Source: Verrucomicrobiota bacterium
GTDB lineage: Bacteria > Verrucomicrobiota > Kiritimatiellia > SS1-B-03-39 > UBA6053
DNA: 34,776 nucleotides
Direction: 5' to 3'
Assembly (NCBI GenBank): GCA_020831625.1
Contig: JAFIGD010000050.1
Coordinates: 1 to 34,776, forward strand
In this document: positions 4,000 to 34,776 of the stretch, piece by piece
How the letters are laid out: each line of letters starts with the position of its first letter
Numbering within the stretch: position 1 is the stretch's first letter
Program-made: the position numbers and the translations under genes
Notes under the pieces: model-generated
Told to the model about the DNA's origin: nothing
The model's input: only the letters and a program-made list of their open reading frames with translations
The model's database searches: none

Positions 4000-6298
4000 G
4001 GCGGTCTCCTTTCTTCGGGTGTGAGGTGTCGGGTTTTGAATGTTTGGGCTGGAAGAAGCGAAGCCGCAGGGCGTTGAAGACGACAAAGAGAGAGGAGAGG
4101 CTCATGGCCGCCGCGCCGTACATGGGGGTGAGCCGCCAGCCGAGCGCGGGGTAAAACACGCCCGCGGCCAGGGGGATGCCCACCACATTGTAAAAGAAGG
4201 CCCAGAAGAGGTTGCCTTTGATGTTTCGAATCGTGGCTTTGGAAAGCTCGATGGCCGTGGCCGCGTCAAGCAGGTCGTTTTTCATGAGGACGATATCCGC
4301 GGAGTCGATGGCAATATCTGTCCCGGCGCCGATGGCCACCCCCACGTCGGCTCTGGCCAGGGCGGGCGCGTCATTGATGCCGTCCCCCACCATGGCCACC
4401 CGCCGGCCCGCTTCCTGAAGAAGCCGCACTTCCCGCTCTTTGTCCTGGGGCAGCACCTCCGCCACCACGCGGTCGATGCCGAGCTGTTTTCGGACGGCCT
4501 CCGCCGTGCGCTTGTTGTCCCCGGTGAGCATCACCACATCGATGCCCATGGCCTTAATGGCGTCAATCGCCCGCAGGGAGGTGGGCTTGACCACATCCGC
4601 CACGGCGATGAGCCCAATGATTTTTTTTGTGTCCGCAAAGTACAGGGGCGTTTTGCCTTCGCTGGCCAACTGATCGGACCGCTTCTCGAATTCGGTGATG
4701 TCAATCCCCTTCTCCCGCATGAGGGCGAGATTGCCCGCGATGTATTGCGTCCCTTCAATCGCCCCGAGAATACCCATGCCGGACACCGAATCAAAGTGAT
4801 CCAATGGAAAAAGTGCAAGCTCCTGTTCTTCCGCGCGCCGGACGACAGCATCCGCCAGGGGGTGCTCCGACGGTTTTTCCAGGGTGGCCGCCAGGCGGAG
4901 AAACGCCGCCTCTTCCATGCCGTTTGCGGGCAGAATATCCGTCACCACCGGCTTGCCTTCAGTGAGGGTGCCGGTCTTGTCCAGCACCACCGTGTCTACG
5001 GAGTGAAGAAGTTCGAGCGCCTCCGCGGACTTGATCAGGATGCCGTTCTGCGCGCCTTTTCCCGTGCCCACCATGATGGAGACCGGTGTGGCCAGTCCCA
5101 GGGCGCAGGGGCAGGAAATGACCAGGACCGTGATGCCGAGGGAGAGCGCGAAGTGGAAGGGCTGGCCGAGAAGCAGCCACACGGCGAGGGTCACCAGGGC
5201 AATGGAGATGACTGCGGGGACGAAAATACCGCTGATTTTGTCCGCGAGCTTGGCAATGGGGGCCTTGGTGGCGTTGGCGTCCTCCACCAGTTGGATGATC
5301 CGGGCCAGGGTGGTGTCGTCGCCCACCTTTTCGGCTTTGAACTTGAAGGAGCCGGTCTTGTTCATGGTGGCGGCGATGACCTTGTCGCCCGCCCCCTTGG
5401 CCACAGGAATGGATTCGCCGGTGATGGCGGCCTGGTCGACGGAGGAGGATCCCTCCACGATGACGCCGTCCACGGGAATGCTCTGTCCGGGTTTCACCAC
5501 CAGCGTGTCGCCCACCAAAACCTCCTCAACAGGCACCACAGTTTCCCGGCCGCCGCGCAGGACCGTCGCCTTTTTGGGTGCAAGGTCCATGAGTTTTTCA
5601 ATGGCTTCGGAGGTCTTGCCCTTGGACTTCGCCTCAAGATATTTGCCGACCGTGATGAGCGACAAGACCACCGCGGCCACCTCGAAATACAGATCGTGAA
5701 GGTAAGCGTGCACGATGTCCATATTGCCGTTCCCGAGGCCGTGGCTCATCATGAAAATAGCGAACACGCCGTAGAGGAAGGCGGAAAAGGTGCCGATGGC
5801 CACCAGTGAATCCATGTTGGGGGACCGGTTCCTCAAGGTCTTGAAGCCCACTTCATAGTACTTGCGGTTGACATACATGATGGGCAGGGTCAGCATCATT
5901 TGAGCGAAGGCGAAAGTAATCCCGTTGTTCGCGCCTTCCATCCAGGCGGGGATCGGCAGGCCCGCCATGTGTCCCATGGAAATGTAAAACAGAGGGGCCA
6001 GGAAGGCCAACGACACTCTGAGCCTGTAGGCCATGCGCAGGCGCTCCTCCTCCACGGGGTTGACCTCTTTGGTCTTGGCGCGGGTACCGTCCCCGCCGTG
6101 CGGGACCGCTTTGTACCCCGCCGCCTCCACGACCCGGATGACCTCGGAGGGGTCGGTGTCTCCCGGTTCCAGACTCATGCGCCCGGTGAGAAGGTTGACA
6201 CTGACGTTCCGCACGCCCTCCATGTTCTTCACGGCTTTTTCGACCGTCGCCGCGCAAGACGAACAGCTCATTCCGGAAATTTCGAATTTCAAACTCAT
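3989..6298 (-). CDS. copA: Copper-exporting P1B-type ATPase
   Basis: 769 residues. The start is ATG 6298 because AGGAG lies about 8 nt upstream; an in-frame ATG at 6316 has no such site. Order: one heavy-metal-associated domain with G-M-S-C-S-S-C (9-15), two N-terminal helices, the actuator domain with T-G-E-S, the metal-channel motif C-P-C (about 394-396), the phosphorylation motif D-K-T-G-T-L-T (about 440), S-E-H-P-L of the nucleotide domain, G-D-G-I-N-D-A-P (about 636) and last helices containing Y-N and M-S-x-S-S, typical of Cu(I) pumps. It exports cytoplasmic Cu(I) across the inner membrane using ATP. A promoter with a CsoR-like dyad lies upstream. Complete and apparently functional. Confidence 0.95.
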   Translation of the reverse strand: MSLKFEISGMSCSSCAATVEKAVKNMEGVRNVSVNLLTGRMSLEPGDTDPSEVIRVVEAAGYKAVPHGGDGTRAKTKEVNPVEEERLRMAYRLRVSLAFLAPLFYISMGHMAGLPIPAWMEGANNGITFAFAQMMLTLPIMYVNRKYYEVGFKTLRNRSPNMDSLVAIGTFSAFLYGVFAIFMMSHGLGNGNMDIVHAYLHDLYFEVAAVVLSLITVGKYLEAKSKGKTSEAIEKLMDLAPKKATVLRGGRETVVPVEEVLVGDTLVVKPGQSIPVDGVIVEGSSSVDQAAITGESIPVAKGAGDKVIAATMNKTGSFKFKAEKVGDDTTLARIIQLVEDANATKAPIAKLADKISGIFVPAVISIALVTLAVWLLLGQPFHFALSLGITVLVISCPCALGLATPVSIMVGTGKGAQNGILIKSAEALELLHSVDTVVLDKTGTLTEGKPVVTDILPANGMEEAAFLRLAATLEKPSEHPLADAVVRRAEEQELALFPLDHFDSVSGMGILGAIEGTQYIAGNLALMREKGIDITEFEKRSDQLASEGKTPLYFADTKKIIGLIAVADVVKPTSLRAIDAIKAMGIDVVMLTGDNKRTAEAVRKQLGIDRVVAEVLPQDKEREVRLLQEAGRRVAMVGDGINDAPALARADVGVAIGAGTDIAIDSADIVLMKNDLLDAATAIELSKATIRNIKGNLFWAFFYNVVGIPLAAGVFYPALGWRLTPMYGAAAMSLSSLFVVFNALRLRFFQPKHSKPDTSHPKKGDRHAG

Positions 6299-7805: not shown

Positions 7806-8727
7806 ACAAAAGAATTTACGCACTGACGCCTTCAAGAAAGCGGCATTGTTTTTGAAAACGAATGCGCGTCCTCTGGAAAGGACCCGGTTTGAACATATCT
7901 TTGCTTCGGGTTCGGTCGGGGATGTCCGGATCGAATTGATGAAATTCCAGAACGCCGACGGAGGTTTCGGCCAGGCGCTGGAGCCGGATTTACGGGCGCC
8001 CGAGAGTTCCGCGCTGTGCACATCGGTCGCATTCCAGATTATGCGCTATCATCAAATCCCGGAAGGAGAGCCCTTCGTGCGGCGGGCCATTCGGTATCTT
8101 GCGGATACGCTGGATCGGGATACGCTCCACTGGCGGATTATTCCGAAGGGCATCGACGCGTATCCACACGCCCCCTGGTGGAATCAGGAAGTGCGGGAGA
8201 CGGGATTGGCTGCCTTTTCGCTGAATCCAACCGCCGAAATTCTGGGCATTGTGCTCGATGGTGGCGGTGCAGACTTCGAACCGAGTATCGCGTCCCAACT
8301 CATGGATCGGGTGATCGAACAACTGGATTCCATTCAAAAAATCGAGATGCACGATCTTCTGTGCTGTTTGCGGTTGCTGGAGGCGAAAAATCTGCCTTCG
8401 ACCGTTCGCGGGCGACTCATGGAAGCGTTGAAACGTCTGGTTTCGGGTTCCATTGCCATCCGTCCGGATCAATGGAAGGGATATTGCCTCCGGCCGCTTC
8501 AAGTCATTCACCACCCGGACTCTCCTTTCGGGGAAGGCTTGGAAGATGCCGTGGCCCTGAACCTGGAGTACGAAATCGAGGAGCAGATGAAAAACGGAAC
8601 CTGGTCCCCCACCTGGTCCTGGGGAGATCAATTCCCAGAAGCATGGGAGGATGCCAAACGTGAATGGACCGGGGTCTTGACTCTGGAGAAACTCATTACC
8701 CTGAAGCGTTTTAACCGCGTCACATGA
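7795..8727 (+). CDS. Alpha/alpha-toroid (terpenoid cyclase/prenyltransferase-fold) protein
   Basis: 310 residues from ATG 7795, which overlaps the end of the GNAT gene. The N-terminal part contains a QW-like repeat, L-M-K-F-Q-N-A-D-G-G-F-G, as found in squalene-hopene cyclase, prenyltransferase and related toroid folds. A long helical body follows, and W-S-P-T-W-S-W-G near the C-terminus resembles a second repeat. There is no D-x-D-D cyclase motif and no signal peptide. The catalytic role is unknown; the fold assignment is by motif only. Confidence 0.55.
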   Translation: MKNEQKNLRTDAFKKAALFLKTNARPLERTRFEHIFASGSVGDVRIELMKFQNADGGFGQALEPDLRAPESSALCTSVAFQIMRYHQIPEGEPFVRRAIRYLADTLDRDTLHWRIIPKGIDAYPHAPWWNQEVRETGLAAFSLNPTAEILGIVLDGGGADFEPSIASQLMDRVIEQLDSIQKIEMHDLLCCLRLLEAKNLPSTVRGRLMEALKRLVSGSIAIRPDQWKGYCLRPLQVIHHPDSPFGEGLEDAVALNLEYEIEEQMKNGTWSPTWSWGDQFPEAWEDAKREWTGVLTLEKLITLKRFNRVT

Positions 8728-18403: not shown

Positions 18404-18446
18404 AGGGTTATACCCCATGGCGAAGGCTTACCCCGTGTGATAACTC
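18404..18446 (+). promoter_or_regulatory. Island promoter 9
   Basis: Plus strand: box AGGGTTATACCCCAT at 18404-18418, 22 bp, TAACTC at 18441-18446. It drives the ice-binding-like gene at 18506 (leader about 53 nt). The 26 bp between this box and that of promoter 8 are the only space separating the two divergent sites. Confidence 0.8.
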
Positions 18447-18505
18447 TGATAAGTATTACCAATGATATTTATAGATCTATTCAACATTACAAAAGGTACG
18501 CCGCC

Positions 18506-20580
18506 ATGAAGACTCAATTTACTCACACCACCGACTCCGGGAAAAACCTGTCCCGTTCTTATCTGGGCTTTCTTGTCGCTGCGACGCTTTTGCTGAACCC
18601 CGTCAAGGCGGCGGATCCCGAATTACCGCTGGAACTGGGCACCGCCGGCGATTTTGTCATTCTGGCAAAATCCGGCATCAGCACCGTGCCGCCTTCAGAC
18701 ATCACCGGCGACATGGGGGTGAGTCCCATCACCTCCACCGCCATCACCGGTTTCGCGTTGACGATGGACAGTTCGGGAGAATTTTCCACCTCCGCCCAGG
18801 TCACGGGAAATATTTATGCGCCGGACTATGCGCCGCCCACACCCGTCAAAATGACCACAGCGATTTCGGATATGGAGACCGCGTACACCACTGCGGCGGG
18901 ACGAACCATACCGAACACCAATAATGAGGGTGCCACGGCCGCAAGCGACAGAGACATCGGCGGACTCACCTTCGCGCCGGGACTTCATAAGTGGACCACA
19001 GGGGTGCTTGTCAGCACCAACGTGACCCTCGACGCCCAAGGCCGGCCGGATGCGGTTTTCATCTTCCAGATTGAAGGCGATTTAACCGTGGCCAGCGGTC
19101 AACGTGTAATCCTCGCCGGCGGCGCGCAGGCCAGAAACATCTTCTGGCAGGTGGCCGGGGGCACCGGAGCCACCATTGGCACCACCGCACATTTTGAAGG
19201 CGTACTGCTGACCGCCACCTCCATCAACCTGCTCACAGGAGCCTCGTTCAACGGCAAACTCCTCGCGCAGACGGATGTGAATGTGCAATCCAATGTGATT
19301 GTGGATTCATCGCTGATCAACCAGTACACCCTGACCTACACCGCGAGTATTGGCGGCGCCGTCCTTGGCGACTCCCCGCAGTTCGTGCTGGAAGGAGAGG
19401 ACGGTACGGAAGTCACGGCCGTCGCGGATCTTGGTTTCGTTTTCCGGCAGTGGAGTGACGGCTCCATCTTCAACCCCCGCACCGACCTCAATGTGATGGA
19501 CGACATCACTGTAGAGGCCGAATTTGTTCCGGAATATACCCTGACCTACACCGCAGGTCTTGGCGGAAGTGTTTCCGGCGACACGCTTCAGACCGTTGCC
19601 GAAGGCGAAGACGGAACGGACGTTACCGCGCTTGCCGATCCGGGATTTGTTTTTGTGGACTGGAGTGACGGATCCACAGTAAACCCCCGCACGGATCTGA
19701 ATGTGATGGCGGACATTACGGTGGAGGCTCAGTTCGTGGCCGATCCCGTATCCTGCGGGATTCCGATCACCCTGGGAGCCTTGCTCGAAAACGATCTGTC
19801 CGGAAGCTTTACCGGAGAAAATCTGATTTACACCGCCTCCTCAAGCAACCCCCTGATCATGACCGCTGTGATCACACCGGAAACAGACTCAGAACCGAGG
19901 CCCTGAGCCTTGGTCAGGTGGAAATCACGGTCACCGCCAGCCAATTGGAAACTGCGGATCAGGTACTCGTTCTGCAGATCGACGTCGTCGGCCATCCCAC
20001 GCTCGTCAGCAGTGGTTTTCTCCCCTTTGAGCCCTGGAACCCCCGGTTTACCCAGGAAATCCGAATCCGGAACGATCAGCCCTGTGACGCGATCGGAGTC
20101 CGGCTTCTGTTTTCAGAGATGAAAGACGGCATCGTGGTGGAAAACCAAAACGGCACCGCGCCGGCTCCGGACGGCCGCGCGGCAATTTCCATGGACTTCC
20201 TGTTTGCATCAGGCGCTGAAATTGATTTGTCGGTCGTTTACCTCTCCACAGGTGCGTTCCGGCCCGACCAACATCCGCCCGTGATCGAAATCCAGTTCAT
20301 CATGGCGGACACCCCCCTGCCCCCCGAAGAAGGCAGCACCATCCTGATCAGCCGAATTCAAATTCTGGAGGACGGCCGGGCCTTTCTGGAGTTCAGCAGT
20401 GTGGCCGGAACCTACTATCAAATCGATTACATGAACGATTTCCCCGACGGCTCCTGGATCACCGTCGCCCTGGAACTGCTTGCGGGCGGGAACTTCACCC
20501 AGTGGATTGATCAGGGGGCCCCGGCGACGGAGCCGATGAGCGGTGTCCGCGTCTATCGTGTGCGGTCCATCACCCCCTGA
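18506..20580 (+). pseudogene. Secreted DUF3494 (ice-binding-like) protein with InlB-type repeats, frameshifted
   Basis: The start at 18506 is chosen because the longer frame begins upstream of the -10 of promoter 9. Signal peptide (cleavage near P-V-K-A-A), then a DUF3494 beta-solenoid of about 240 residues (F-V-I-L-A-K-S-G-I-S, G-V-S-P, A-V-F-I-F-Q-I-E-G-D-L). Two InlB B-type repeats of about 70 residues follow (Y-T-L-T-Y-T-A; F-x-x-W-S-D-G-S). At about 19880-19900 the frame changes: the first frame ends at 19906, while the next frame continues smoothly (G-N-R-L-R-T-E-A-L-S-L-G-Q-V-E-I-T-V-T-A) to 20580 and ends in a PVC-style tail (Y-Y-Q-I-D-Y-M-N-D; V-Y-R-V-R). One lost base explains it; sequencing error is possible. 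DUF3494 proteins bind ice or serve as adhesins. Confidence 0.75.
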
Positions 20581-28519: not shown

Positions 28520-28778
28520 GAAATGAGCAGATGTATAACGTTATGACAGCCGAACAACCAGAAAAACCCTGGAAACCCGTTCGGCATCGGTTTAGAATTC
28601 ATCCATAAGCGATCATCACCGTTTGAAGCAAGCTTAACCCGCCTAAAACCGAGTCCCGGCCAGGTTTCCGAATCCCGGAAAACAAGGCCCGACATTTTCC
28701 GAACCTCGGAAAAACCCGAAGTCCCGTTTCCGGCGGTCGGAAAACCTCCCGGCCACCACTGTGAACCCCAAAAACCCT
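28520..28778. other. Gene-free stretch holding three phased dyads
   Basis: Between the divergently facing 5' end of the MurU-AmgK gene and the 3' end of the integrase remnant. Apart from the dyads at 28665-28743, nothing is recognised. Confidence 0.6.
28665..28743. promoter_or_regulatory. Three TTTCCG-N5-CGGAAA dyads spaced exactly 31 bp
   Basis: Dyads start at 28665, 28696 and 28727, each TTTCCG, 5 nt, CGGAAA. The intervals are 31 bp both times (about three helix turns), so the sites face the same side of the DNA. They lie 145-225 bp upstream of the MurU-AmgK start codon and 35 bp past the integrase end. Confidence 0.6.
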
Positions 28779-29269
28779 TTATTTCGGGAAATCCAGCGGA
28801 CTCTTCCGCTCCTTTTGCGTCCGGCTTGGAACCGTGTGTGTGTAGATCATCGTCGTCCGCACATCGGAATGACCCAGCATCTCCTGGATCGTCCGAATAT
28901 GTCCGAGTATTGACGAATCCGAATCTCTTCTTTGATGCGGCGACTCAACTCCGCCCAAGCTCCTGCCTTCCCACACCCAGACTCTTCTGTCACCTGAGGC
29001 CCCTTCATTTTCGAACGCAGAATCTCCTGACACAAGCGAACCGCCTCTGTCGCCGCCGCCTGCTGCTCAGGGGATTGCCCTTTCGAAGCCAGTTTCTGTA
29101 AAAACGGCATCAAACTATCCTCCTCCTGAGGAGGATGACGATACTTCGCACAAAAATCCCAGTAAAACCGAAGCCACTTCAACGCCTCCCCATGACCCTG
29201 ACCTGACACGCCCATCTTCTTCAGAGCGTCAGAAAAACTCGAAAATACATCAGCGGGTGGAGCGTTCAT
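28779..29269 (-). pseudogene. intI: Integron integrase with internal deletion
   Basis: From ATG 29269, residues 1-121 form an extra N-terminal core-binding-like domain (L-R-F-Y-W-D-F-C-A-K-Y-R-H-P and [19 protein letters not shown]). Near 28900-28912 the sequence jumps, in another frame, to the very end of an Int[23 protein letters not shown] with the catalytic Tyr, then K-S-P-L-D. Missing are the second core-binding part and nearly the whole catalytic domain, including both catalytic Arg and the IntI-specific patch. At least about 160 residues are gone, more if the extended type is the reference. Inactive as it stands. Confidence 0.88.
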
Positions 29270-29416
29270 GGACTTATATAAATAACGTATAACATGTTCG
29301 TTTGAGTAGTTATACGATTAGTCAAAATCCTTTTCAACCACAAAATGTAGAAAATGCTTGATCAAAATAAAGCTCCGGTGCAAGATACCCGAAAAACGCT
29401 CAATAACTTGTTAGGC
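29270..29416 (+). other. attI region, recombination point G|TTAGGC at 29410
   Basis: The stretch between the integrase start and the first cassette ends in GTTAGGC (29410-29416). Cassette 1 begins at 29411 with TTAGGC, which complements its own R'' core ACCTAAC. The AT-rich upstream part should hold the integrase promoter and the cassette promoter, but I cannot place either with confidence. Confidence 0.75.
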
Positions 29417-29424
29417 CCACTGAA

Positions 29425-29745
29425 ATGAATATATTCGAAATACTTCACATGTGGCTGTTGAAAGTTTCGCCCTCTAAAATCTACAAGACACAAACACGGC
29501 TAGAAGAAGAAGGGCTATCTGTGGCAACCAAAGACTTGATCGCTCATTATCTTGCCTCTAATGAGGAAATGAATGAGCTGATCGAGCTTGTTTCTGCCAT
29601 AAAACGTCATGATCTCGAAATTGATATGCCCTTGGCGTCTGCTTTGGTCCTTTCCGATAGAAGCGACCAGGTTGTCAAAAATCTTGATAACCCTGAATAC
29701 CGCCAAAAATACATTGAAATGTGGAAAAGCAAAATTTTGACCTAA
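29425..29745 (+). CDS. Cassette 1 protein, unknown helical
   Basis: 106 residues in cassette 29411-29792. Highly charged and mostly helical by composition (S-K-I-Y-K-T-Q-T-R-L-E-E-E-G-L; N-E-L-I-E-L-V-S-A-I-K), no signal peptide or transmembrane part. Start 14 nt into the cassette; stop inside the R'' core, so the gene fills the cassette exactly. Being next to attI it should be the best expressed. No family recognised. Confidence 0.75.
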   Translation: MNIFEILHMWLLKVSPSKIYKTQTRLEEEGLSVATKDLIAHYLASNEEMNELIELVSAIKRHDLEIDMPLASALVLSDRSDQVVKNLDNPEYRQKYIEMWKSKILT

Positions 29746-29798
29746 CAAAAACATCGAGCGAACCGAGAGTACTCGGTCCGCTCATCTAATCGTTGACT
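29740..29798 (+). other. attC 1
   Basis: R'' ACCTAAC (29740-29746), stem GCGAACCGAG/CTCGGTCCGC around AGTA, R' GTTGACT (29792-29798). Confidence 0.9.
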
Positions 29799-29872
29799 AT
29801 GGAAGAAAACGAATCTGAACCACGGAACGCACGAATAAACAGAGATAAGTCAGCTCAAAATCAAGAAAGAAA

Positions 29873-30136
29873 ATGAAAACAACTATAGACTTCAAAAATT
29901 TCACCTTTCAACTCAATGAAACTTCGTTCATTTCGCTCCTCCCTATACTCGTCTTGGGTTTAATCACGTTACTTCTCGCGATCATCGCTTTATTAAAACT
30001 GCGAAGACGCCCCATGGACGAAACTTCAAGAGCCATTTGGGCCTTTGTTATCCTATACACTCCTTTTGTCGGCCCCATTGTTTTTTTCATTGTTCGACCT
30101 GGAAACATTCCAGATGAAGTGCGCAGGTACGCCTAA
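29873..30136 (+). CDS. Cassette 2 protein, PLDc_N-like small membrane protein
   Basis: 87 residues in cassette 29793-30288. Two transmembrane helices (about 17-43 and 55-78) with a short basic loop (K-L-R-R-R-P). W-A-F-V-I-L-Y-T-P-F-V-G-P-I-V-F-F-I-V-R-P-G resembles the N-terminal domain of cardiolipin synthases (PLDc_N), which also occurs alone. An 80-nt leader precedes it, unusual for a cassette; the leader holds AACCACGG and AAACAGAGAT, related to a repeat in cassette 8. Confidence 0.65.
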   Translation: MKTTIDFKNFTFQLNETSFISLLPILVLGLITLLLAIIALLKLRRRPMDETSRAIWAFVILYTPFVGPIVFFIVRPGNIPDEVRRYA

Positions 30137-30234
30137 TCGTTTTAGACAACGGAGTTGATTGAATTAGGTTATGCATTGCCTGAACCTGATAAAGATAATC
30201 TATGACTACCGATAAAATTATGTTAAAAAATAAG

Positions 30235-30294
30235 AGTCAACCAAAGACGGCAGCGAACCGAGAGTACTCGGACCGCTGCGTCTAGACGTTATCA
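30235..30294 (+). other. attC 2
   Basis: R'' AGTCAAC (30235-30241) complements the cassette 2 start; stem GCAGCGAACCGAG/CTCGGACCGCTGC; R' GTTATCA (30288-30294). Confidence 0.9.
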
Positions 30295-30314
30295 CGATTT
30301 AATACAGTATAAGC

Positions 30315-31208
30315 ATGAAATATTTAGAAACGTTTCGCGAAAACCATCAAATTACCGCAGGAGCGGACTTAACGGATATAGAGGTTTCTGTAGAGTGTGT
30401 ATCAGAGGCAAATGAGTTGGCTTATGAATACCTCGCAAATATCGATAATAAAACCAATAAAGATGGATTTATTATGCACACTCATCTAAACTTACTTGGA
30501 AGAGTACACGAACAAGCTGAAGGAATGCTTGCATGCATTGCGAACAGATGCCCTACAAGCTCAGAAGCCCTAGGTAGAATTGTAGTTGAGGGTTCAATAA
30601 ATTTGATGTTTTTGTCAGTATTGGGGGATGAAAGACATATTTTATCATTTTTTAACCGTTGGATCGTGGAGCACAAAAGAAAACTTGAGGAATGGAGACT
30701 GAAAGTCGAAGGTAAAGCCTATATGCAGGAGATTCAATCAATGATTGATGATAGGCTTTCTGCACTGGAGAATTATAAGTATTATGTAGACTTTGTTATT
30801 AAAAACTTGTCTGTTGATGTAATGAATCTTCCAAAATATTGGCCTAAATCGTTATATAATAGGTTTGAAAGTCTGGGTTTGGAAGAGTCCTACTATACAA
30901 TTTATCACAGGTTAAGTGGCTCGAGCCATATTACAGCGGAAGATACAATTTCATGGATGATGTTTCTGAACCAGTCAAATGAGCAAAGGAGATCTTTGGC
31001 AATAGAGGCATGGTCATATTCGATAATGATGTCACGTATCGTTTCTTTAACTTTTATTGAAGGAGTTATGGGATGTTGCCAAGCACATGGATTAAAAGAT
31101 AATCGGACCTTGCAAAGATTCAATGAACTTAAACAATATTTGGCTCAAGCTGTATCTGAAATATCAGAATCTGCTGGAGTGCCAAATGATAACAATCCCC
31201 GTCAATGA
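30315..31208 (+). CDS. Cassette 3 protein, DUF5677-like
   Basis: 297 residues, by far the largest cassette gene (cassette 30289-31229). All-helical: H-L-N-L-L-G-R-V-H-E-Q-A-E-G-M-L-A-C, then E-A-L-G-R-I-V-V-E-G-S-I-N-L-M-F-L and L-S-G-S-S-H-I-T. This recalls DUF5677 proteins, which contain a conserved R-x2-E and S-x3-H pattern of unknown role. The stop lies inside attC 3. AT-rich throughout, unlike the left flank. Confidence 0.65.
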   Translation: MKYLETFRENHQITAGADLTDIEVSVECVSEANELAYEYLANIDNKTNKDGFIMHTHLNLLGRVHEQAEGMLACIANRCPTSSEALGRIVVEGSINLMFLSVLGDERHILSFFNRWIVEHKRKLEEWRLKVEGKAYMQEIQSMIDDRLSALENYKYYVDFVIKNLSVDVMNLPKYWPKSLYNRFESLGLEESYYTIYHRLSGSSHITAEDTISWMMFLNQSNEQRRSLAIEAWSYSIMMSRIVSLTFIEGVMGCCQAHGLKDNRTLQRFNELKQYLAQAVSEISESAGVPNDNNPRQ

Positions 31209-31235
31209 ACGAGTCATTGCGGATAGGCGTTGGCT
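31187..31235 (+). other. attC 3 (short, divergent stem)
   Basis: R'' TGATAAC (31187-31193), stem CCGTCAATGA/GTCATTGCGG, R' GTTGGCT (31229-31235); 49 bp, overlaps the end of the cassette 3 gene. Confidence 0.85.
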
Positions 31236-31243
31236 GAGATAAA

Positions 31244-31609
31244 ATGAGGCGATATACGATAGAAATTTGGATTACCGACGAACGCGAGGCTACAGCTTCT
31301 CGGATAAACCGTTGTGAAGAGGTTTCAATCATGGTTCGTGCAGAAAACCAAGATCATGCGCTAGCACTTGGGAAATCTGTTCTTGAAGAAGGTGAATGGG
31401 AAAGTCGCCGAATTCTTGAGTACGATGTTCAGGAAGTCGGTGAATGGGAGGATGATGCGAAACCAGAAATCATCAGCTATCCTATCCGTAAAGAACTTAT
31501 CCGAAAAAACGACTCGCCATTCTTAAAATGGTTGTCAAAATTTAACAATAACACGAAAAAGCCAACAACCAGTCGCACCGAACCGCGAGTACGCGGTCCG
31601 GTGGACTGA
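31244..31609 (+). CDS. Cassette 4 protein, unknown (identical to cassette 9)
   Basis: 121 residues in cassette 31230-31613. Starts M-R-R-Y-T-I-E-I-W-I-T-D-E-R-E-A and continues with an acidic alpha/beta pattern (V-R-A-E-N-Q-D-H-A-L-A-L-G-K; W-E-S-R-R-I-L-E-Y-D-V-Q-E-V-G-E-W-E-D). No signal or membrane segment, no family recognised. The last dozen residues (S-R-T-E-P-R-V-R-G-P-V-D) are encoded by attC 4 itself. Confidence 0.75.
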   Translation: MRRYTIEIWITDEREATASRINRCEEVSIMVRAENQDHALALGKSVLEEGEWESRRILEYDVQEVGEWEDDAKPEIISYPIRKELIRKNDSPFLKWLSKFNNNTKKPTTSRTEPRVRGPVD

Positions 31610-31747
31610 GACGTTGTCGAAGTCCAGACGAACGGCGGAAATACGCTTCTCCCCCTGTTTCTCGCCGTCGATAACTGCAAACATGAACGCCTGATTTGGA
31701 GGGCAGTGCTTGCTTGGGACAATCTTAAAAAGCTCTGACATTTTCAT
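31535..31747 (-). CDS. Reverse-strand cassette 5 protein, unknown
   Basis: 70 residues on the minus strand from ATG 31747 (M-K-M-S-E-L-F-K-I-V-P-S-K-H-C; A-F-M-F-A-V-I-D-G; S-A-V-R-L-D-F-D-N). The first 50 residues have a convincing protein composition. The last 20 are just attC 4 and the end of cassette 4 read backwards, so the original C-terminus is lost or was short. The start overlaps the stop of an upstream minus-strand frame (ATGA, 31744-31747). No family recognised; cassette 31614-31801. Confidence 0.4.
   Translation of the reverse strand: MKMSELFKIVPSKHCPPNQAFMFAVIDGEKQGEKRISAVRLDFDNVSVHRTAYSRFGATGCWLFRVIVKF
31560..31619 (+). other. attC 4
   Basis: R'' AGCCAAC (31560-31566), stem CACCGAACCGCG/CGCGGTCCGGTG around AGTA, R' GTTGTCG (31613-31619). 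Confidence 0.92.
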
Positions 31748-31964
31748 ACCGAATCCTCCCGACAACCATCCGCATCAGCGAAGGATCGCTGAGCGGCGGC
31801 GTTGATGTTTGCGCAAATCTGTATGATCTCTTGCATTTCGGTTTGCGTAGCCGTTGCCCCCAACTCCCGCGAAAGGAAATTAAACAGCGGCTGGTAGGGG
31901 TCAGAATCAAAAACATCAACAATCCCCTCGACCGAACGCGCTTGATCGCGCGTCCGGTCAGGGG
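31744..31964 (-). pseudogene. Reverse-strand fragment in cassette 6, running through attC 5
   Basis: Minus-strand frame open from about 31964 to TGA 31744-31746, reading F-D-S-D-P-Y-Q-P-L-F-N-F-L-S-R-E-L-G and E-M-Q-E-I-I-Q-I-C-A-N-I-N-A-A-A-Q-R-S. The composition is protein-like, but there is no ATG until Met at 31836, which would leave 30 residues. It looks like the C-terminal part of a gene cut at attC 6. It crosses attC 5 and is coupled (ATGA) to the next minus-strand frame. Confidence 0.35.
31760..31807 (+). other. attC 5 (short)
   Basis: R'' CGACAAC (31760-31766) complements the start of cassette 5 (TTGTCG); stem ATCAGCGA/TCGCTGAG; R' GTTGATG (31801-31807). 48 bp. Confidence 0.8.
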
Positions 31965-31975
31965 TGGCGTATCAT
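31914..31975 (+). other. attC 6 with atypical R' GTATCAT
   Basis: R'' CATCAAC (31914-31920) complements the start of cassette 6 (TTGATG); stem ACCGAACGCGC/GCGCGTCCGGT; the R' position reads GTATCAT (31969-31975) instead of GTT. Confidence 0.8.
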
Positions 31976-32597
31976 GATCACTAAAACAATAATCGCGGTG
32001 GTTTGCCTCATTAGTCCCTTTCTCTCTTTAGCGAATGAAAGGGAGCATAAAGATGTGCGAATCTATCATTTAGGTAGCAGGTCGTCTGTCCTGTTTCTGA
32101 GGCTAAACACAGTGAATAAAGAGTTGTTTAACCAGAAAGGTGCGGAAAGTGGCTTCTCCGAAATAATACTGATAGACCGAAATGAGCGGTATGTATCCAG
32201 CAAACATGAGATGGCGCTTGTTGAGCATATTCTAGCTCATATTGGTTCCGAAAATGAGGGTAGAAAGGAATATTCTGTTGGCCCCATGTCTGCGCATGGT
32301 AGCGAACGTTATATCATTGAATCTGGTGATGAAATATTGTTTGTGACTCCGCATTGGGAAGACCATTGGAAGAAATATGACACCCTAAAAACTCCCATGG
32401 TGGATGTTCAGCGTTGCACTAAAATCGGAGAGACAACGCTTAATGGAGTGAAGTATGATATTTACGAAATTAGCGGACGTTATCATCAATATTTGGAGGT
32501 TCCTAGAAATATAGCAGATGAAGTCGACTGGTTCGAATACAGATTCAAAGATTCTCAACCTGATGAAGAACCTGTTGTAGTTCCTGGCAATAAATGA
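31974..32597 (+). CDS. Cassette 7 protein, secreted, unknown
   Basis: 207 residues in cassette 31970-32647, starting 4 nt into the cassette. Signal peptide (T-I-I-A-V-V-C-L-I-S-P-F-L-S-L-A-N), then an alpha/beta pattern (V-L-F-L-R-L-N-T-V-N; F-S-E-I-I-L-I-D-R-N-E-R; Y-D-I-Y-E-I-S-G-R-Y-H). Polar acidic tail. Likely periplasmic. The stop overlaps the R'' core. No family recognised. Confidence 0.7.
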   Translation: MITKTIIAVVCLISPFLSLANEREHKDVRIYHLGSRSSVLFLRLNTVNKELFNQKGAESGFSEIILIDRNERYVSSKHEMALVEHILAHIGSENEGRKEYSVGPMSAHGSERYIIESGDEILFVTPHWEDHWKKYDTLKTPMVDVQRCTKIGETTLNGVKYDIYEISGRYHQYLEVPRNIADEVDWFEYRFKDSQPDEEPVVVPGNK

Positions 32598-32653
32598 TAC
32601 CAGGCACTGGTGCGAACACTCGTCCCGCGCGTCGCACAGTTTTAACGTTGGCT
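32594..32653 (+). other. attC 7 with atypical R'' ATGATAC
   Basis: R'' ATGATAC (32594-32600) is the exact complement of the odd GTATCAT at the start of cassette 7; stem GTGCGAAC/GTCGCAC; R' GTTGGCT (32647-32653). Confidence 0.8.
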
Positions 32654-32681
32654 AAGCAATCTAAAAGCAGATACTATTAAG

Positions 32682-32999
32682 ATGAAAAAGCGAAACAAAG
32701 TCCTCCTTCTGTCAATACCCTTTTCTCTTTTCGGGATAGTCCAGGCTACATTCGTATGGATGGGTTATGAAACGGGCATTCGCTCGATACATTACCTAGG
32801 TTATTTTGGAGTAGCACTAACCGTTAATATTGCGTGTGACGTGGCTTACAGAATTGGTAGGGCCGATGAACGTATTGCGAAAGGAAATCAAGAACTTCAA
32901 CGTTCATGCATCAGTGTTCATCAGTGTCCATCAGTGGTTGATCACCATCAGCCAACCAACAGTCTCACCGAACCTCGTAAACTCGGTCCGGTGGACTGA
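32682..32999 (+). CDS. Cassette 8 protein, small membrane protein
   Basis: 105 residues in cassette 32648-33003. Two hydrophobic segments (about 7-26 and 36-58), then A-Y-R-I-G-R-A-D-E-R-I-A-K-G. After about residue 75 the sequence is encoded by a 10-bp-period repeat (32911-32940) and by attC 8 (T-E-P-R-K-L-G-P-V-D), so the natural protein probably ended earlier and was extended by insertion of the repeat. Function unknown. Confidence 0.55.
   Translation: MKKRNKVLLLSIPFSLFGIVQATFVWMGYETGIRSIHYLGYFGVALTVNIACDVAYRIGRADERIAKGNQELQRSCISVHQCPSVVDHHQPTNSLTEPRKLGPVD
32911..32940 (+). repeat. ATCAGTGTTC-type tandem repeat, 3 units of 10 bp
   Basis: ATCAGTGTTC, ATCAGTGTCC, ATCAGTGGTT in tandem. Similar ATCxGTGTTCATCxGTGG strings recur in many unrelated bacterial genomes. 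A reverse-oriented degenerate relative seems to sit at 29815-29850 in cassette 2. Confidence 0.6.
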
Positions 33000-33009
33000 G
33001 ACGTTGGCT
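32950..33009 (+). other. attC 8
   Basis: R'' AGCCAAC (32950-32956), stem CACCGAACCTCG/ACTCGGTCCGGTG, R' GTTGGCT (33003-33009). Confidence 0.9.
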
Positions 33010-33017
33010 GAGATAAA

Positions 33018-33383
33018 ATGAGGCGATATACGATAGAAATTTGGATTACCGACGAACGCGAGGCTACAGCTTCTCGGATAAACCGTTGTGAAGAGGTTTC
33101 AATCATGGTTCGTGCAGAAAACCAAGATCATGCGCTAGCACTTGGGAAATCTGTTCTTGAAGAAGGTGAATGGGAAAGTCGCCGAATTCTTGAGTACGAT
33201 GTTCAGGAAGTCGGTGAATGGGAGGATGATGCGAAACCAGAAATCATCAGCTATCCTATCCGTAAAGAACTTATCCGAAAAAACGACTCGCCATTCTTAA
33301 AATGGTTGTCAAAATTTAACAATAACACGAAAAAGCCAACAACCAGTCGCACCGAACCGCGAGTACGCGGTCCGGTGGACTGA
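33018..33383 (+). CDS. Cassette 9 protein, duplicate of cassette 4
   Basis: The same 121-residue protein as at 31244-31609. The whole cassette (33004-33387, 384 bp) reads identical to cassette 4 including its attC. See cassette 4 for protein features. Confidence 0.8.
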   Translation: MRRYTIEIWITDEREATASRINRCEEVSIMVRAENQDHALALGKSVLEEGEWESRRILEYDVQEVGEWEDDAKPEIISYPIRKELIRKNDSPFLKWLSKFNNNTKKPTTSRTEPRVRGPVD

Positions 33384-33393
33384 GACGTTATGA
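33334..33393 (+). other. attC 9
   Basis: R'' AGCCAAC (33334-33340), same stem as attC 4, R' GTTATGA (33387-33393). Confidence 0.92.
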
Positions 33394-34010
33394 ATAGAGA
33401 AATTATGAAGCGTGCAACAGCAAACATATGGATACCTCTGGGCGTATTGATTATCCTGTGTAATGGTTGCGTCTATATAAGTTCAACTCAGGTAGGAAAA
33501 AGCGCATATCCACCAGAGCGTGAATGGGATGCTGTGGAATCTGGCAAAAGTGCCATACACATTATTGCGTTACTGCAAGGTGATAAAAATTCGTATGGGA
33601 TACCATGGATATTTTTGTTTGAAAGAGATCAACTGCCGTACCAACTAAATCTTGTTTTCGCGGTCCCTGAAGATCAGCCAGCTGACAAAGTTGTTATAAC
33701 ATATTTAGAAGTTGCGCACGAAGGAAGGCTTGGCGGTTCATACTCAATACTAGAGGACGGCTATGAAAAAATTGCCAAATTTGGCTTTGATGACATGAGC
33801 CAGTGGAATGCACCCTCAATGTATCGTTCCAGAGTTTCTTTTCCAGCATCGATACGTAGTCGGTCAAATTTTGAACTTACGATACAAGGTTATATCAAGT
33901 TTTCAGAAGTAAATGAAAAATTTAGTCAGTTCTTGAGGGTTGACAGCAAAGAGGAATGGTACTTAACGCCCTCATTATTTGAACAACTTCTTCGTGATGC
34001 CTCTTGGTAA
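33390..34010 (+). CDS. Cassette 10 protein, lipoprotein of unknown function
   Basis: 206 residues in cassette 33388-34091. The ATG (33390) is part of the recombined core itself (TTATGA); Met6 is an alternative. Signal with lipobox I-L-C-N-G-C (Cys at about 27). The rest is beta-rich (H-I-I-A-L-L-Q-G-D-K; Y-Q-L-N-L-V-F-A-V-P-E-D; F-E-L-T-I-Q-G-Y-I-K). Probably outer-membrane or periplasmic. No family recognised. Confidence 0.7.
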   Translation: MNREIMKRATANIWIPLGVLIILCNGCVYISSTQVGKSAYPPEREWDAVESGKSAIHIIALLQGDKNSYGIPWIFLFERDQLPYQLNLVFAVPEDQPADKVVITYLEVAHEGRLGGSYSILEDGYEKIAKFGFDDMSQWNAPSMYRSRVSFPASIRSRSNFELTIQGYIKFSEVNEKFSQFLRVDSKEEWYLTPSLFEQLLRDASW

Positions 34011-34037
34011 CTGAAACTAATTTTAAGATGACAATAA

Positions 34038-34097
34038 TCATAACCATCAGTCGCACCGAACCGCGAGTACGCGGTCCGGTGGACTGAGACGTTGCAC
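34038..34097 (+). other. attC 10
   Basis: R'' TCATAAC (34038-34044) complements the cassette 10 start; stem as attC 4; R' GTTGCAC (34091-34097). Confidence 0.92.
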
Positions 34098-34556: not shown

Positions 34557-34723
34557 GGTCGCTGCGCTCCCCCTGAATGACGGCGCTCACTTCGTTCAGC
34601 GGCTATTCTGGATGGGTCCGCTTCGCTCCCCCCTCCAGAACTAGCCACTTCACCGCACTTCGGTCTGGCTTTACGCAAACAAGTTTGCTTCAATCCCTCC
34701 CTTCGGCGGTGAGCGCCGTCATT
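34551..34723 (+). ncRNA. Highly structured leader of cassette 12
   Basis: A perfect 15-bp inverted repeat (AATGACGGCGCTCAC at 34576-34590, complement at 34709-34723) encloses further stems: GGCTA-t-TCTGGA with TCCAGA-ac-TAGCC, ACCG/CGGT, and GCAAAC/GTTTGC (34675-34688). It is preceded by an 8-bp hairpin TTCAGGGG/CCCCTGAA (34551-34577). No coding frame is credible here. It could be a structured RNA, a regulatory leader for the following gene, or a nested insertion. Confidence 0.45.
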
Positions 34724-34728
34724 ACCCC

Positions 34729-34776
34729 ATGAAGAAATATAAAAACATGATTTTTGCTTTTCTGGCAGGAATGGCG
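34729..34776 (+). CDS. Cassette 12 gene start, 3' partial
   Basis: From ATG 34729 the frame reads M-K-K-Y-K-N-M-I-F-A-F-L-A-G-M-A and runs off the window. A basic start plus hydrophobic core looks like a signal peptide or first membrane helix. Only 16 residues are visible. Confidence 0.45.
   Translation, partial: MKKYKNMIFAFLAGMA

Follow-up and report, generated by a model that had tools for sequence, protein, structure and literature searches.

A gene cassette of 384 bp, consisting of an open reading frame (ORF) for 121 amino acids and an attC site, is present in two identical copies in the cassette array of a bacterium from the phylum Kiritimatiellota. The best explanation is a duplication by an integron integrase (probability about 0.8), most likely at a time when the intI gene of this lineage was still intact. 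The exact identity, the attC borders, the non-tandem position and the same pattern in the closed genome of a relative are observed; the agency of an IntI, its route and its timing are inferred.

The window (the whole stretch of DNA analysed, 34,776 bp) corresponds to the complete contig 87 (C87) of a 4.89-Mb genome that consists of 111 contigs and is 96.3% complete. As a first scan for attC sites, in which every AAC...GTT pair was folded, was far too noisy, the sites were called instead with a covariance model (CM) built here from 13 sites. This model recognized 11 attC sites on the plus strand between 29744 and 34554. The series delimits short units in a single orientation with AAC...GTT-type ends, that is, an integron cassette array, in which the cassettes end at about 29792, 30288, 31229, 31613, 31801, 31969, 32647, 33003, 33387, 34091 and 34550. 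Its features are as follows:

28782-29269, minus strand: intI relic with ~122 N-terminal and ~33 C-terminal residues; centre deleted, frames shifted
29150-29410, plus strand: leader and attI, near-identical and gap-free on C87, C68 and C32; the shared part ends at CTTG|TT
29411-31229, plus strand: cassettes 1-3, with attC at 29744-29796, 30239-30292 and 31191-31233
31191-31233, plus strand: attC of cassette 3, the cassette to the left of copy 1 (CM score 41.1 bits)
31230-31613, plus strand: cassette 4, copy 1 of the 384-bp unit, exactly matching 33004-33387 and bounded by CG|TT
31244-31609, plus strand: 121-aa ORF of copy 1, which runs into attC with its final residues (SRTEPRVRGPVD) and stop codon
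31564-31617, plus strand: attC of copy 1 (CM score 73 bits); the bottom strand folds into a long hairpin
31614-33003, plus strand: cassettes 5-8, between the copies, with attC at 31764-31805, 31918-31973, 32598-32651 and 32954-33007
32954-33007, plus strand: attC of cassette 8, the cassette to the left of copy 2 (CM match)
33004-33387, plus strand: cassette 9, copy 2 of the 384-bp unit, exactly matching 31230-31613
33018-33383, plus strand: 121-aa ORF of copy 2, identical to that of copy 1
33338-33391, plus strand: attC of copy 2 (CM score 71.7 bits)
33388-34091, plus strand: cassette 10, right neighbour of copy 2 (attC match)
34722-34776, plus strand: first 55 bp of another cassette, also present directly after attI on C68

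Alignment of the two copies revealed 384 matches over 384 bases, with neither mismatches nor gaps. On the left, the identity runs on for 2 bp (CG) and is then broken (GG vs GA), the junctions being GGCG|TTGGCTGAG for copy 1 and GACG|TTGGCTGAG for copy 2; on the right, it also runs on for 2 bp (TT), followed by G vs A (GACG|TTGTCGAAG and GACG|TTATGAATA, respectively). The shared block ends on both sides at the attC crossover core CG|TT and matches precisely the unit that an integron integrase would excise, a single cassette, plus the short overlap of the conserved core. In 1.45 million random draws of block pairs (100-1000 bp) from the same array, not once did all four ends fall 2 bp or less from a cassette border, and the coincidence with the borders is therefore not due to chance. 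The identity is confined to the cassette unit, from CG|TT to CG|TT, as in an integrase-made duplication. Adjacent copies or the repetition of a whole block, the marks of a tandem produced by unequal crossing-over, were not found: the copies are not in tandem, have unrelated neighbours and are separated by four cassettes which are themselves not repeated. A search of the whole assembly returned these two copies and no third one, and a piece-by-piece BLAST comparison of the array fragments retrieved from the genome found no other exact duplicates of cassette length. The initial annotation had described cassettes 4 and 9 as base-for-base the same, attC included, and different immediately outside, and this description is accurate. 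The exact alignment that it proposed as a check showed neither identity past the G|TT borders (beyond the core) nor several differences, and its cassette numbering agrees with the mapped attC ends.

The attC site of copy 1 has a predicted single-stranded fold of -21 kcal/mol (z -6.4). Bottom-strand hairpins are supported at three attC sites, including this one, with z-scores of -6.4, -3.3 and -5.8; the attC of cassette 3 folds more weakly (z -2.0). The attC sites of cassettes 8 and 10 are 85% and 96% identical, respectively, to those of the 384-bp copies. At 31969, the core reads G|TAT instead of G|TT. The last 55 bp of C87 are also the last 55 bp of C68 (C68:45236-45290), where they directly follow attI, so that a second cassette, or at least its first 55 bp, is common to two arrays; on C87 this cassette start is preceded by CGTCA and not by the usual CG core. 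Some other features of the contig may be mentioned here. The ORF of cassette 1 (29425-29745) is similar to the N-terminal region of flotillin-like FloA, with a score slightly below the Pfam cut-off. A ~32-bp repeat of the CATCAGTGT type inside cassette 8 (32910-32942) is found at dozens of sites in this genome and its congeners. Outside the array, the region 18437-19906 encodes a protein of 489 amino acids that combines InlB B-type repeats with an ice-binding-like domain.

The locus has the layout of a complete integron, with intI beside the array in the opposite orientation and attI between them (attI-like point CTTG|TTA at 29410|29411), in which intI is a relic. An intact integrase with the catalytic residues is absent from C87, and the locus is in effect an array with attI and without integrase. 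The leader is 97.5% identical between C87 and C68 over 29015-29413, and the leader-attI segment is followed by a different cassette on each of C87, C68 (44840-45238) and C32 (159-435); the attI core is also present in the relative G001 (G001:C135). The intI truncation differs from contig to contig, with 85 N-terminal residues left on C68 and 41 on C32, and a fourth, more distant intI copy of the same lineage on C13 is interrupted as well. The description of intI as broken in the initial annotation was thus right for C87, and the three other relics are broken too. No intact intI was found in the 4.89-Mb assembly (96.3% complete), and no match in the genome reached the TIGR02249 cut-off of 265 bits. 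An integrase-like ORF on C100 was considered as IntI and rejected (best TIGR02249 match 102.8 bits, profile positions 179-236 missing). As nearly one third of the intI genes were pseudogenes in an early survey (PMC2426708), a broken intI is not unusual. Repeats of the TTCCGA...TCGGAAAA type adjoining the intI relic (28665-28745) recur across the genome.

An integrase would recombine the folded bottom strand of attC. As this reaction is semi-conservative, a cassette can be released while a copy is retained, and the released circle would then be inserted at another attC in the array. The integrase might also have captured the cassette twice or inserted cassettes 5-8 between two adjacent copies, with the same footprint. 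An integrase route is supported by the CG|TT limits at all four ends, by the strong bottom-strand hairpins of attC and by intact, full-length intI frames in the same genus (congeners G001 and G003). Against it counts that the acting integrase is not seen, as the assembly contains no intact intI. Furthermore, insertion at attC is a rarer reaction than insertion at attI, which also speaks against an integrase.

Copying and reinsertion by an integrase, which the initial annotation had preferred to unequal crossing-over, indeed fits better than a single event of the latter kind, considering the borders at the attC crossover points, the non-tandem position, the unrelated flanks and the same pattern in the closed genome of the relative B12222 (see below). 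A nearly identical footprint would be left by the insertion of cassettes 5-8 between tandem copies, and also by homologous recombination if unequal crossing-over in near-identical attC sites had duplicated a larger block (e.g., cassettes 4-8) and the second set of cassettes 5-8 had later been lost. In favour of the homologous route, the attC sites of cassettes 4, 8, 9 and 10 show 85-98% similarity over 53 bp, but at least two steps are required, traces of a second set of cassettes 5-8 were not found, and the attC of cassette 3, which adjoins copy 1 on the left, is short and differs from that of cassette 8. Moreover, it would take an integrase to lose these cassettes with an exact CG|TT border restored, and we consider the homologous route quite improbable. 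There is an even slighter chance of an assembly effect, in which copies with a few base differences were merged, or copies that do not follow each other in this order in one chromosome were so arranged by the assembler. In three cases, a pair of contig ends has an overlap of exactly 55 bp, which identifies a k=55 de Bruijn assembly; assemblers of this kind can merge near-identical copies, and the copies are 'identical' as assembled. For metaSPAdes, an aggressive collapsing of bulges into a consensus has been described (PMC8021871), though the assembler used here may be a different one. A chromosome with one copy, together with an excised circle of cassettes 5-9, would give the same graph. Nevertheless, the contig follows the simplest path through such a graph, and comparable exact duplicates exist in the closed B12222 genome.

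The initial annotation had also concluded that the identical pair dates integron activity close to the present. This is not supported, as 0 differences in 384 positions limit the divergence only to <0.78% (95% upper limit), and gene conversion or merging by the assembler could lower the apparent divergence further. With the local intI relic, the broken relics on C68, C32 and C13 and no intact intI found, the duplication may be older than the loss of intI, or it may be the work, in trans, of an integrase that escaped assembly; both directions of copying and both orders of duplication and intI loss are compatible with the data. Recent activity in trans, with an intact integrase in an unassembled part of the genome or on another replicon moving the cassette after the local intI was broken, appears unlikely to us. 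It is a variant of the integrase-made duplication that differs in timing, and the confidences in the two overlap. The perfect identity of the copies, the fragmentation of array contigs at repeats, the intact intI of relatives and the occurrence of one cassette start both at the attI position of C68 and at the far end of C87 all agree with it, but no intact intI is present in the assembly, and timing below 0.8% divergence is beyond resolution. It is very doubtful that all integron platforms of this genome lost intI by separate deletions, with the leader-attI remaining near-identical, and that an outside integrase (from a plasmid, phage or neighbour cell) still copies cassettes within and between the arrays.

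The protein of 121 amino acids encoded by the duplicated cassette matches no family in Pfam, NCBIfam, PADLOC or PHROGs, and no relatives were found in plasmids, in 57 related genomes or in a genome set that represents each GTDB species once. A single PDB chain at E 0.05 was taken as a chance match. An attC-encoded tail similar to SRTEPRVRGPVD, with the stop codon inside attC, is common to several unrelated cassette ORFs that run into attC (31244-31609, 32682-32999 and 33018-33383 in the window; also L021, L096 and L098).

With the same covariance model, 38 attC sites were found on 16 contigs of this genome and 11-36 sites in each of three congeners. G001, a genome of the same genus, is a metagenome-assembled 'Verrucomicrobia bacterium'. 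Kiritimatiellota bacterium B12222 (G008, CP120722.1), a member of the same family with a closed genome (4,432,027 bp, one contig), possesses 97 attC sites at about ten loci. These two relatives place the host in Kiritimatiellota. The dispersal of the arrays is therefore real and not only a consequence of fragmentation. B12222 has two cassette pairs with 100% identity and ends at ACG|TT, one of 322 bp within the same array and the other of 316 bp split between two arrays; other cassette pairs are 97-99% identical. Cassettes 4 and 9 represent the same phenomenon as these exact pairs, and this comparison is decisive. The family holds at least two intI lineages. In B12222, each of the two intI lineages has a short insertion immediately ahead of the catalytic tyrosine (G008:C1; L151 about 4750-4785, L152 about 8295-8355); the two insertions are related, one being in frame and the other shifting the frame.

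The duplication is a new example of a known phenomenon and an ordinary event, as copy-and-paste duplication of cassettes has already been described for integrons. Its value is that of a clean natural example in the phylum Kiritimatiellota, for which our literature search found no integron studies. The wider picture of dispersed arrays, several intI relics with different breakpoints, a near-identical attI leader and at least two intI lineages in the family is more useful than the duplicate itself, and would make it possible to test whether filled arrays favour the loss of the integrase by selection.

The integrons of B12222, from the same family, are among the closest known systems, with the same attC class and exact cassette duplicates with the same borders, but at least one full-length intI frame is present there, and the 384-bp cassette is absent. 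For class 1 mobile integrons, copy-and-paste cassette duplication was observed experimentally and explained by the semi-conservative bottom-strand reaction (PMC8024014). There, too, integrase activity duplicated a full cassette with its attC, but with an integrase present and drug selection applied, the new copy was inserted at attI, whereas here the copies are in the middle of an array, beside an intI relic. The sedentary chromosomal integrons of Vibrio (PMC1382264) likewise contain repeated (paralogous or duplicated) cassettes in large chromosomal arrays; in contrast, the arrays described here belong to another phylum, are dispersed over many loci and are accompanied by several intI relics.
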